In this document: one piece after another, positions 54,606 to 57,310 of the stretch
How the letters are laid out: every line of letters starts with the position of its first letter
How positions within the stretch are numbered: position 1 is the first letter of the stretch
Assembly (NCBI RefSeq): GCF_902809865.1
Contig: NZ_CADDWH010000001.1
Location: 62,001 to 126,000 of the forward strand
Direction: 5' to 3'
Length of the DNA stretch: 64,000 nucleotides
Origin: Halobacillus sp. Marseille-Q1614
GTDB taxonomy: Bacteria > Bacillota > Bacilli > Bacillales > Halobacillaceae
The notes under the pieces: model-generated
What the model saw: only the letters and a program-made list of their open reading frames with translations
The model's database searches: none
Told to the model about the DNA's origin: nothing
Position numbers and translations under genes: made by a program

Positions 54606-56348
54606 TTAAACTTGTAATTCAAATTGCTTCGAATACAAATGGGAATAGTTCCCCTCTTTTTCAAGCAGCTGCTCATGCGTACCCTGCTCTGTGATTTTTC
54701 CATCTGATAGGACGATAATTCTTTCGGCATTTCGAATTGTTGATAATCTATGGGCAATCACTAAAGTTGTACGGCCTTTGGCTAATAACTCCAGAGATTC
54801 CTTCACAATGCTTTCACTTTCGTTGTCTAGTGCACTGGTCGCTTCATCGAGAATGAGGACAGGCGGGTTTTTGAGGAAAACGCGGGCAATACTTAGGCGC
54901 TGTTTCTGACCTCCTGACAGTCTTACACCACGCTGCCCAATTTCAGAGTGATACCCTTGTGGCAAGCTAGTAATGAAATCATCCGCATTTGCTTGTTTAG
55001 CTGCTGCAATGACTTCCTCATCGCTGGCCTTTGGGCTGCCATATCGGATATTTTCCATGACAGTCCCTGAAAAAAGGTAAATATCCTGGTGGACAAAGCC
55101 AATGCTGCTTCTTAGATAGGCTAGGTCAATATCACGAATATTTTTACCATCCAGCAATATTTCACCCTCAACTGCTTCATAAAAACGAGGAATCAGAGAG
55201 CAGAGAGTCGTTTTCCCTGCACCGGATGGACCGACGAGTGCCACATATTCTCCAGGCTGAATCTGCAGAGACAAATCCTCAAAAACGTGACCCAAGTAGT
55301 CTTCGTAACCAAAAGTAACATTTTTAAATTCAATATGTCCTTTAATAGCTGGCAGCCTTTTTGCGCTTGGTTTGTTGTCAATCGCTGGTTTCGTATTCAT
55401 GATTTCCATAAACCGCTGAAACCCCGTAATCCCTTCCTGAAACTGCATACTAATGTGAGTGAGACGCTGCATCGGTTCGACCATGAAACCAATGTATAAC
55501 AGAAAAGTAATCAGGTCGGCTAAGTCCAGCGACGCATTAACAATTTGCACAGCGCCAAAGATGATCACTGTAATCGTAATTAATTGAATGAACGTTTCCA
55601 TACCATTAAAAAAATAAGCTTCAGCCTTATACGTTCCCTTTCGGCTTTTAAGGAAGCGGTCATTCTCTCGATTGAATTTTTCGATTTCTAATGCCTCATT
55701 AGCAAAGGATTTAACGACACGTATGCCGGCCAGACTATCTTCGACCTGTGCGTTCACATCACCAATCCGTTCTTTATTGTTCGTTAATGCCCGGTTCAAT
55801 TTCTTATTAAAATACAAAGAAAAGATCCCAAGGATGGGCAGGAAGCAGAAGACGGCAACGGTCAGAGGAGCATTGATAAAAAATAAAATAACGAATGCTC
55901 CAACAAAACGTACGAGATACTTGACGTAATCTTCCGGTCCATGGTGATAGAGTTCAGACAGCAGCAATAAGTCGTTGGTGATTCGAGTCATAAGCTGACC
56001 TGTTTTTTGCTTATCATAAAAGCTGAAAGGAAGCTTCTGCATATGGGAAAACAATTCACTTCGTAAATCACTTTCCATGCGGGCTCCAATTTCATGTCCC
56101 TTGTAATCTACAAAATAGTTCCCGATATTTTGTACGATCACTAACAGTAACATCAGACCGCCAATCCAAAAGACATCATGTAGTGCAGTGGATAGGCTGC
56201 CTTCAAGAACGTCCTTGGTAACGTAGCGGACAAGTAACGGAAATACCAAAGTTAGTGAGGAAACGATCATAGCACAAGCTAATACGGTAAGGAAAATTCT
56301 CAGGTACGGCTTATAATACGAAAGAAATTTATTAACTGGAAATTGCAT
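54606..56348 (-). CDS. ABC exporter, fused permease and ATPase
   Basis: A 580-aa half-transporter of the MsbA/Sav1866 type. Six membrane helices occupy residues 1-310. The ATPase follows with Walker A GPSGAGKTT, signature LSGGQKQR, Walker B VLILDEATSALD and the switch His in AHRLST. It probably works as a homodimer, exporting a lipid, drug or peptide. The mRNA leader carries a small ORF and alternative hairpins, and a cre box lies at the promoter region, so expression is likely induced under special conditions. Confidence 0.95.
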   Translation of the reverse strand: MQFPVNKFLSYYKPYLRIFLTVLACAMIVSSLTLVFPLLVRYVTKDVLEGSLSTALHDVFWIGGLMLLLVIVQNIGNYFVDYKGHEIGARMESDLRSELFSHMQKLPFSFYDKQKTGQLMTRITNDLLLLSELYHHGPEDYVKYLVRFVGAFVILFFINAPLTVAVFCFLPILGIFSLYFNKKLNRALTNNKERIGDVNAQVEDSLAGIRVVKSFANEALEIEKFNRENDRFLKSRKGTYKAEAYFFNGMETFIQLITITVIIFGAVQIVNASLDLADLITFLLYIGFMVEPMQRLTHISMQFQEGITGFQRFMEIMNTKPAIDNKPSAKRLPAIKGHIEFKNVTFGYEDYLGHVFEDLSLQIQPGEYVALVGPSGAGKTTLCSLIPRFYEAVEGEILLDGKNIRDIDLAYLRSSIGFVHQDIYLFSGTVMENIRYGSPKASDEEVIAAAKQANADDFITSLPQGYHSEIGQRGVRLSGGQKQRLSIARVFLKNPPVLILDEATSALDNESESIVKESLELLAKGRTTLVIAHRLSTIRNAERIIVLSDGKITEQGTHEQLLEKEGNYSHLYSKQFELQV

Positions 56349-56435
56349 AGTTTACCCCTTTATTGTGTTATTTAAATGAACACATATAAGGGGGACGACC
56401 GTTAAACGTTAAGAAGGCGTACCACCCTTATATGT
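56349..56435 (-). promoter_or_regulatory. Alternative hairpins in the ABC exporter leader
   Basis: On the minus strand, ACATATAAGGG (inside the leader ORF, plus positions 56425-56435) pairs perfectly with CCCTTATATGT (56382-56392). The latter, extended to CCCCTT...GTGTT, can instead pair with AACAC...AAGGGG (56355-56369), which is the exporter RBS. The two folds exclude each other. Confidence 0.6.
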
Positions 56436-56465
56436 TTGTACGGTTTTGATCGTGATATTTCTCAT
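56409..56465 (-). CDS. Leader peptide of the ABC exporter
   Basis: An 18-codon ORF, MRNITIKTVQTYKGGTPS, with a very strong AAGAAGGAGG RBS 8 bases before its ATG. It ends 60 bases before the exporter start. Its 3' half forms one arm of the leader hairpins. This layout is that of translation-dependent attenuation, as in leader-controlled drug exporters of Firmicutes. Confidence 0.65.
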   Translation of the reverse strand: MRNITIKTVQTYKGGTPS

Positions 56466-56498
56466 GTAAATAGCCTCCTTCTTATTAATTAAATTTAT

Positions 56499-56512
56499 TG
56501 TAAACGTTTTCT
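56499..56512 (-). promoter_or_regulatory. cre (CcpA) box upstream of the ABC exporter leader
   Basis: TGTAAACGTTTTCT matches the cre consensus TGWAARCGYTWNCW at every position. It lies 34 bp before the leader ORF, in or near the promoter. Confidence 0.55.
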
Positions 56513-56651
56513 TGGAAAAGGAAAAGTGAATTTAGAGATGTTTACGGGATCAGAAGGGGATTAGTAATAAATCTCGAACTTGTTTTATATACCAGTTTAT
56601 AGGAAGTGAAGTAATTCTCATCATCCGAATATGAATAGGAGGGGCTATGAA

Positions 56652-57056
56652 GTGAAGGATTGGTTAATTTTAACTCTAGTCCTCGGAAGTATACTTACGG
56701 CTTGTTCAAACGATATCGAAAATAAGGGGAATGAAATTATCGTCCAAGAACGAATCGGAGAAACTGATCAATATATTGATCTAAGAAAAATAGATACCGT
56801 GGATCAAGTCGATCAGGTAAGGGATGAGATAAAAGACATGAAGTGGGAAAATGCAGTCGTAAGTATGAACCAGCCTGCGGATTTTAGATTTTACTTTCAT
56901 GAAGAAAGTAAAGTTTCAGGACTAACGTATGAACTATGGATCGGTCCAAGCCTTGAGACAATAGAATTAGTGTATGAAAATAAATATGTTCAGCTGAATG
57001 AAGAAAAGTCATCGAAACTGTTTGAGATTCTTATTGGTGAATGGTCAGGGAGTTGA
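56652..57056 (+). CDS. Small lipoprotein, unknown
   Basis: A 134-aa lipoprotein starting at GTG 56652, behind AGGAGGGG. The signal peptide leads to lipobox LTAC. The mature part is acidic and mixed alpha/beta, with no domain I recognise. The ATG at 56631 is in frame but would place the RBS inside the gene. The next ORF begins 2 bp after its stop. Confidence 0.7.
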   Translation: MKDWLILTLVLGSILTACSNDIENKGNEIIVQERIGETDQYIDLRKIDTVDQVDQVRDEIKDMKWENAVVSMNQPADFRFYFHEESKVSGLTYELWIGPSLETIELVYENKYVQLNEEKSSKLFEILIGEWSGS

Positions 57057-57058
57057 AT

Positions 57059-57310
57059 ATGAAAGAAAACAGAGATCACGGGTTTGAAGATATTTTTGAA
57101 CTATTCAAAAGGTGTAAGTTTTCTAACTGTACCCACACAAATGAGCCGGCCTGCGCAGTTCAAGAAGCCATTTTAGAAGCGATTCTTTCAGAAGAACACT
57201 TCCATAATTATTATAGAGAGAAAAATGAGACAGAATATATTTCTAAACAAAAGAATAAAACGAAGGCCAGGGATTATATGAAACAGAGGAAACTCTTTCG
57301 CAAGCCCTAA
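57059..57310 (+). pseudogene. Stand-alone C-terminal zinc domain of RsgA (truncated)
   Basis: An 83-aa reading frame whose sequence is the C-terminal zinc-binding part of the ribosome-assembly GTPase RsgA: FEDIFELFKRCKFSNCTHTN, then EPACAVQEAI, with the Cys-x5-Cys-x-His-x5-Cys pattern kept. The OB and GTPase domains are absent. It begins right after the lipoprotein gene and could still be translated. Either a decayed second rsgA copy or a captured small domain. Confidence 0.7.

Follow-up and report, generated by a model that had tools for sequence, protein, structure and literature searches.

A putative translational attenuator with an 18-codon leader before an ABC exporter gene of Halobacillus, and similar leaders before other genes of Bacilli

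The window is a stretch of 64,000 nucleotides from Halobacillus sp. Marseille-Q1614. On its minus strand, a gene for a 580-aa ABC exporter, assigned by family to the ABCB/MsbA/Sav1866 type (54606..56348), is preceded by a short ORF and by segments that can pair in two ways. This arrangement raises the question of whether a ribosome on the short ORF decides if the ribosome-binding site (RBS) of the exporter gene is open. The presence of a short leader ORF with its own RBS, and of a hairpin that computed folding and covariation indicate to sequester the exporter RBS, points to a translational attenuator: we put the probability that the leader and three arms, here called A, B and C, control the exporter RBS in this manner at roughly 0.7.

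Leader ORF, pairing arms and exporter RBS in the window

The leader ORF (MRNITIKTVQTYKGGTPS) consists of 18 codons and a TAA stop (56465..56409, minus strand). Its RBS is AAGGAGG (56480..56474), and an RBS of the AGGAGG type is seen in the aligned orthologues. Arm A (ACATATAAGGG, 56425..56435, minus strand) occupies leader codons 11-14, which read TYKG in frame; sequence and covariation mark it as the probable anti-sequestering strand. Arm B (CCCCCTTATATGTGTT, 56379..56394, minus strand), recognised by folding and covariation, begins approximately 15 nt past the leader stop and can take either A or C as its partner. Arm C (AACACAATAAAGGGG, 56355..56369, minus strand), recognised by covariation and sequence, includes the exporter RBS AAGGGG (56360..56355). 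The distance between the leader stop and the exporter start is 60 nt.

The A:B helix comprises 11 bp, in which ACATATAAGGG (56435..56425) pairs perfectly with CCCTTATATGT (56392..56382). In the B:C helix, 6 and 5 bp flank an internal loop: CCCCTT...GTGTT (within 56393..56379) pairs with AACAC...AAGGGG (56369..56365 and 56360..56355), the last segment being the exporter RBS. The computed energy was -17.6 kcal/mol for the A:B segment and -13.6 kcal/mol for the B:C hairpin. These are the features on which the earlier note was built: the ORF with a strong RBS is present, the 11-bp pairing is perfect in the window and largely kept across orthologues, and the alternative pairing of the same downstream arm with the exporter RBS is confirmed by the sequence and by covariation in orthologues. 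The folding signal of the 161-nt region was weak in a shuffle test (z -1.71; 13 of 200 shuffles folded as well or better). When the window was scanned for an openness switch, with a threshold of 0.15 in modelled openness, the leader-exporter locus was the only one flagged among 52 main ORFs and 10 leader candidates.

Transcription attenuation, as in bmrB or vmlR, is known for antibiotic-response genes of B. subtilis, as described in excerpts of PMC4191407 and PMC9226507. Such a mechanism is extremely unlikely here, since no terminator-like site was found between 56300 and 56700, and the 3' arm of the exporter-RBS hairpin is the RBS itself, followed by TAAACTATG with no U tract.

Two further elements had been proposed for the region. 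A cre box upstream of the leader, described as a full match, turned out to have one mismatch: the cre-like site AGAAAACGTTTACA (56499..56512, minus strand) agrees at 13 of 14 positions with what we take to be the consensus, TGWNANCGNTNWCA. A site with at most one mismatch occurs within 60 nt upstream of 16 of 62 exporter leaders and might provide a second, transcriptional input. The leader RBS was also said to pair with CCTTCTT at the leader end. This 7-bp pairing exists in the window, but it is not conserved: over 62 leaders, the mean longest match was 3.77, compared with 3.34 in shuffles, and the pairing was rejected as a feature of the family. A third conserved helix, ACCGTA:TACGGT, was rejected as well (55.3% of cells paired, compared with 55.6% in shuffles).

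It should be mentioned that an 89-aa ORF on the plus strand of the window (57041-57310) resembles the C-terminal part of RsgA, a ribosome-assembly GTPase (E 2e-10); the rest of RsgA is absent from the ORF.

Conservation before the exporter family

In a first alignment of 16 distinct loci, which included named Halobacillus, Rossellomorea, Metabacillus and Fictibacillus, the ORF was kept, and 98.3% of the cells of A:B and 96.0% of those of B:C were paired. A covariance model of the exporter leader element, R1, was then searched against 397 genomes of the order and 398 of the class. In the order, 46 genomes matched, and all 41 strong matches (E below 1e-5) lay directly before the exporter or its diverged clade; three of the 41 precede the diverged relative, as judged from the translated sequence. 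In the class, 18 genomes matched, and the strong matches outside the order were all before the exporter (8/8). Removal of identical elements, together with L087, L092, L093 and L094, left 62 distinct exporter-family leaders with ORF and arms. A second leader pattern matched 13 of 398 genomes: eight were leaders already known and five look like chance.

The leader was mostly absent from homologues at or below 48% identity (one doubtful candidate in 23 loci; L088 and L111 are exceptions), and no such leader was found before a 59%-identical exporter in an Anaerolineae metagenome bin. In G452, the element is split by approximately 225 nt between the leader and the RBS hairpin. By eye, the extra nucleotides of this locus (L087/L092; G452:C2:416798-417157) hold short near-repeats; the leader ORF and the hairpin are both retained.

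Covariation was assessed on an alignment of 59 rows, from which L076, L099 and L100, with long spacers, were left out. Paired cells amounted to 95.5% for A:B and 90.7% for B:C, with eight double-changed cells in each helix. None of 500 shuffles, which take no account of relatedness, reached the real value for percent paired, double-changed cells or covariation score in either helix. The number of pairs with a double change was reached by 9 (A:B) and 5 (B:C) of the 500, and that of further pair types by 49 and 1, respectively. Helices slid along the alignment were a second control. Their percent paired was at most 75.8% (A:B) and 64.5% (B:C), below the real values, and their covariation scores were 0.104 against the real 0.141 (A:B) and 0.042 against 0.066 (B:C). 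However, double-changed cells in the slid helices numbered up to 9 (A:B) and 14 (B:C), as many as or more than in the real ones; double changes alone are therefore unconvincing. Taken together, the covariation in the aligned sequences gives good support for A:B and B:C, not proof. In the comparison of related genomes that the earlier note had proposed, the leader ORF was thus kept in orthologous loci and compensatory changes occurred in both helices; loss of neither was seen.

These results bear on the simplest alternative, in which a constitutive hairpin tunes translation of the exporter and the ORF is incidental. The B:C helix by itself would lower translation, the coding signature is weak, and the z value of the region given above is modest. 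On the other hand, the ATG, the RBS and the stop are kept along with the length, and arm A covaries with B, which is relevant only if B has a second partner. This explanation is very unlikely, and an attenuator in which B changes partners remains preferred.

The leader has 18 codons in 50 of the 62 exporter leaders, and likewise in 15 of 16 leaders before hydrolase genes and 13 of 15 before GNAT genes, which are described below; most of these were found by length-aware models, whereas the hydrolase leaders from a protein search were not. In the 58 leaders that were placed by pattern or had a readable frame, the start of the arm shifts by at most one codon in either direction (the pattern did not find the arm in L088 and L111 and put it in the wrong place in L036 and L042). 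The peptide is less constrained. The pN/pS value was 0.71 for codons 2-10, 0.63 for codons 11-14 and 1.33 for codons 15-18, over 364 non-independent pairs; leaders of lengths other than 18 or 20 codons were left out, as were L088, L111, L099, L100 and any pair separated by more than 12 differences.

An attenuator of the ermC kind, with drug-specific arrest of the nascent chain, would require one compound, one fixed stall codon and dependence on the peptide. A peptide consensus, M[KR]NMTNQTVQTYKGGT, does recur in many genomes, and Thr8 and Val9 are found in 35 and 39 of 53 leaders, respectively. Yet codons 2-10 vary widely, ahead of YKG the leaders of Metabacillus and Fictibacillus have few residues in common with that of the window, and the hydrolase and GNAT leaders differ again while length and arms are mostly kept. 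A conserved arrest peptide with a fixed stall codon, as in ermCL, was not apparent from these sequences, and this explanation is unlikely. Since the peptide changes among the leaders but their length and the place of the arm are kept, what is sensed is probably the position of the stall and not a special nascent peptide. In other words, the conserved feature is geometry, which argues for sensing of ribosome position and against a specific arrest peptide.

Ribosome position and openness of the exporter RBS

The effect of a ribosome on the leader was modelled by blocking 30 nt round the P site (14 upstream and 15 downstream of its first base) and computing the pairing at each position; the footprint is an assumption, and equilibrium folding is a simplification. 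Averaged over the 62 leaders, the openness of the exporter RBS was 0.23-0.33 with the ribosome at codons 1-7 (0.31-0.33 at codons 4-5), 0.13 at codon 8 and 0.07-0.08 at codons 9-18. Accompanied with this closure, pairing between the leader and B fell from 11-12 bp at codons 1-5 to under 4 bp from codon 9, and pairing between B and the RBS rose from 3.3 to 5.5. Taken singly, 52 of the 62 leaders showed a decrease in A:B pairing and 40 an increase in B:RBS pairing. When codons were shuffled inside each leader, the early-minus-late difference of 0.240 dropped to 0.004 (replicate s.d. 0.008).

The effect is not uniform. The early-minus-late difference exceeds 0.1 in only 44 of 62 exporter leaders, and six show no gain. 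The window leader alone opens clearly at codon 4 only (0.54), the other positions from 1 to 8 giving 0.08-0.13. Mutually exclusive pairing governed by ribosome position is thus seen in the model across the family, against the permutation control, and is weak in the window leader alone.

The model suggests the following mechanism. A ribosome anywhere from about codon 8 to the stop would cover A but not B, so that B pairs with C and closes the exporter RBS. With the ribosome stopped at about codons 1-7, A would be free to pair with B, and the exporter RBS would open. Steady translation of the leader would keep the exporter off, and compounds that halt ribosomes at initiation or at the first codons would turn it on. 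With no ribosome on the leader, the mean openness was 0.26. This is near the early-stall value, and non-translation of the leader might therefore also open the exporter RBS.

In the model, any slow-down in the first codons acts identically, and the downstream genes are of resistance type by family only. The leader might accordingly report a shortage of amino acids or the general rate of translation instead of antibiotics. This seems rather improbable, as codons 2-8 carry no conserved repeat of a single amino acid and the downstream genes belong to efflux and drug-modifying enzyme families. The reading of an attenuator responsive to ribosome-targeting compounds is retained.

The earlier observation is partly confirmed: its core was right, and two side claims, the full cre match and a general pairing of the leader RBS, fail. 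Its interpretation, that occupancy of the leader by ribosomes sets access to the exporter RBS, is supported by the family-wide folding model, in which codon permutation abolishes the effect.

Similar leaders before other genes and comparison with known attenuators

A similar layout precedes genes assigned by sequence to isochorismatase-family hydrolases, GNAT acetyltransferases, an APH-type phosphotransferase and MFS pumps in other Bacilli. Weak matches of R1 fell on 18-codon leaders before the hydrolase (L090, L091, L106, L107) and before GNAT acetyltransferases (L108, L109), and on leaders of 18 and 19 codons ahead of an MFS pump (L089, L110). Their E values of 0.004-0.07 per genome, over hundreds of genomes, are singly not significant; they were accepted on the grounds that they pointed to the same genes repeatedly, and that a search with the hydrolase protein, in which the leader played no part, also came upon the leader. 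That search matched 42 of 199 genomes. Among the 30 loci listed, ten had a leader, of 18 codons in nine and 15 in L132, and all ten were among the 12 most similar loci. The leader was absent from the other two of these 12 (L131, L133), and no leader of the A/B/C type was found at the 18 less similar loci of the 30. No double changes were found in the hydrolase-leader helices. Before more distant hydrolases, a 14-codon ORF with a strong RBS was observed (MKMRGTEWLEVKEI in L144 and MKITIKEWLEAKEI in L154), possibly another type of leader.

A second covariance model, R2, was built without the exporter leaders. At E <= 0.5 it matched 103 of 299 genomes, many by chance, and 50 matched loci were inspected. 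Of the first 30, 28 had a leader and a target (13 hydrolase, 14 GNAT and 1 APH). Sixteen of these were new (2 hydrolase, 13 GNAT and 1 phosphotransferase with an APH domain); the others were 11 loci used to build R2 and L184 from the hydrolase protein search. The GNAT frame in L171 is short (78 aa), and the main frame in L183 is broken. Among 20 further matches picked from the list, four had an 18-codon leader and a target (L185, L187, L190, L196), three were GNAT genes without an 18-codon leader (L186, L191, L193), L188 lacked an intact target, and 12 look like chance. R2 also matched the window leader (E 0.0013).

Two of these loci (L187, L190) have 18-codon leaders before a second GNAT type (KSNWEEAIxLSVKEEQQ-like). 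In L196 (G274:C12:82914-83009), the gene after the 18-codon ORF belongs to the MFS and resembles TetA(P)/Tet(40) at 271 bits, below the curated cutoff, and the arms are unlike those of the family.

The ribosome walk was positive in 13 of 16 hydrolase, 13 of 15 GNAT and the single APH leader. The gain exceeded 0.1 in 10 of 16 hydrolase and 8 of 15 GNAT leaders, compared with 10% and 9% of permuted leaders. The mean swings were modest: approximately 0.6 to 0.4 for the hydrolase leaders and 0.6-0.45 to 0.3 for the GNAT leaders. The walk was clean for the 15 GNAT leaders and not for the first GNAT pair (n=2). The APH leader was open at codons 4-8 only (0.21-0.29, compared with 0.01), and in the two MFS leaders the mean openness fell from about 0.5 to below 0.1.

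Plasmid records were picked by protein similarity, seven out of 34 listed matches. Four of the seven carry a leader of 17-18 codons; modelled early and late openness differ clearly in L206 (0.48/0.24) and L208 (0.65/0.33) and not clearly in L205 (0.38/0.35) and L211 (0.38/0.27). L207 has no leader, L209 has only an unrelated 12-codon ORF, and L210, which did not pass the filter, has, by eye, a 16-codon leader. In L211 (CP065518.1, labelled as a Stenotrophomonas rhizophila plasmid), the GNAT upstream region and leader are nearly identical to those of the Lysinibacillus fusiformis plasmid (L206); the record may carry a wrong label or stem from contamination. A Paenibacillus exporter, 60% identical, is preceded by a 16-codon leader with different arm sequences. 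In the model, its exporter RBS is accessible with the ribosome at codons 1-5 (0.23-0.51), closes at codons 6-13 (0.00-0.03) and regains part of its openness at codons 14-16 (0.18-0.39).

The logic resembles that of known systems, as far as excerpts of the cited papers describe them. In ermC, translation of the leader favours an RBS-hiding hairpin and stalling leads to an alternative one (PMC4191407, PMC5418344); induction follows a macrolide stall at codon Ile9 (PMC12121999). The same choice of hairpins seems to operate here, whereas the peptide varies, the model gives a stall window of about codons 1-7, and the gene type and the arms are different. For the toiL uORF of E. coli topAI, the place of the stall is the proposed means of sensing several classes of ribosome-targeting drugs (PMC12121999), a broad sensing that the present leader may share. 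However, toiL pairs directly with the topAI RBS, and a stall at any point along it is proposed to open the gene. In the present element the partner of the leader is an intermediate strand, and the model opens the RBS for early stalls only. In vmlR of B. subtilis, RNA pairing changes when an antibiotic stalls ribosomes on the uORF, variants of the uORF sequence remain functional, and a hairpin sequesters the vmlR RBS (PMC9226507). The vmlR leader differs in also using transcription attenuation with a terminator, in a uORF of 3 codons against 18 here, and in an ABCF gene against an ABC exporter. In the bmrB-bmrCD locus of B. subtilis, a leader peptide likewise controls a multidrug ABC transporter, and some translation inhibitors act as inducers (PMC4191407). 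Its leader has 53 codons, it uses a transcription terminator, and two exporter genes follow. The present element thus differs from ermC and toiL in its fixed length, tolerant peptide, predicted early-stall window and apparent reuse before unrelated genes.

A family of attenuators with fixed length and a tolerant peptide is absent from Rfam 15, which at gathering score gave no match in the window or in 10 loci with related leaders, and no description was found in searches of an open-access library of papers. The remark of the earlier note that the peptide is unlike known leaders holds in the same two sources.

A broader reading may be considered, to which we give somewhat less than even odds. 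An 18-codon leader with a nearly free peptide and the A/B/C strand exchange would be a single module that recurs, through descent or convergence, ahead of several unrelated resistance-type genes across Bacilli. The fixed length would act as a ruler reporting any stall in the first 7-8 codons. Such a leader would tolerate changes of its peptide, detect translation inhibitors and flag unknown resistance genes. By sequence-based assignment, its genes would be the ABC exporter, the isochorismatase-like hydrolase, GNAT acetyltransferases, the APH-type phosphotransferase and MFS pumps. According to an excerpt of PMC11702664, streptothricin can be a substrate of an isochorismatase-like hydrolase; the hydrolases here are known by family assignment only.

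If this reading is true, a broad regulatory family would tie uncharacterised genes of the efflux and drug-modifying types in Bacilli to ribosome-targeting compounds. It would allow a clear-cut test of stall-position sensing that is independent of the peptide sequence, and the leader would help to find new resistance determinants in environmental bacteria.
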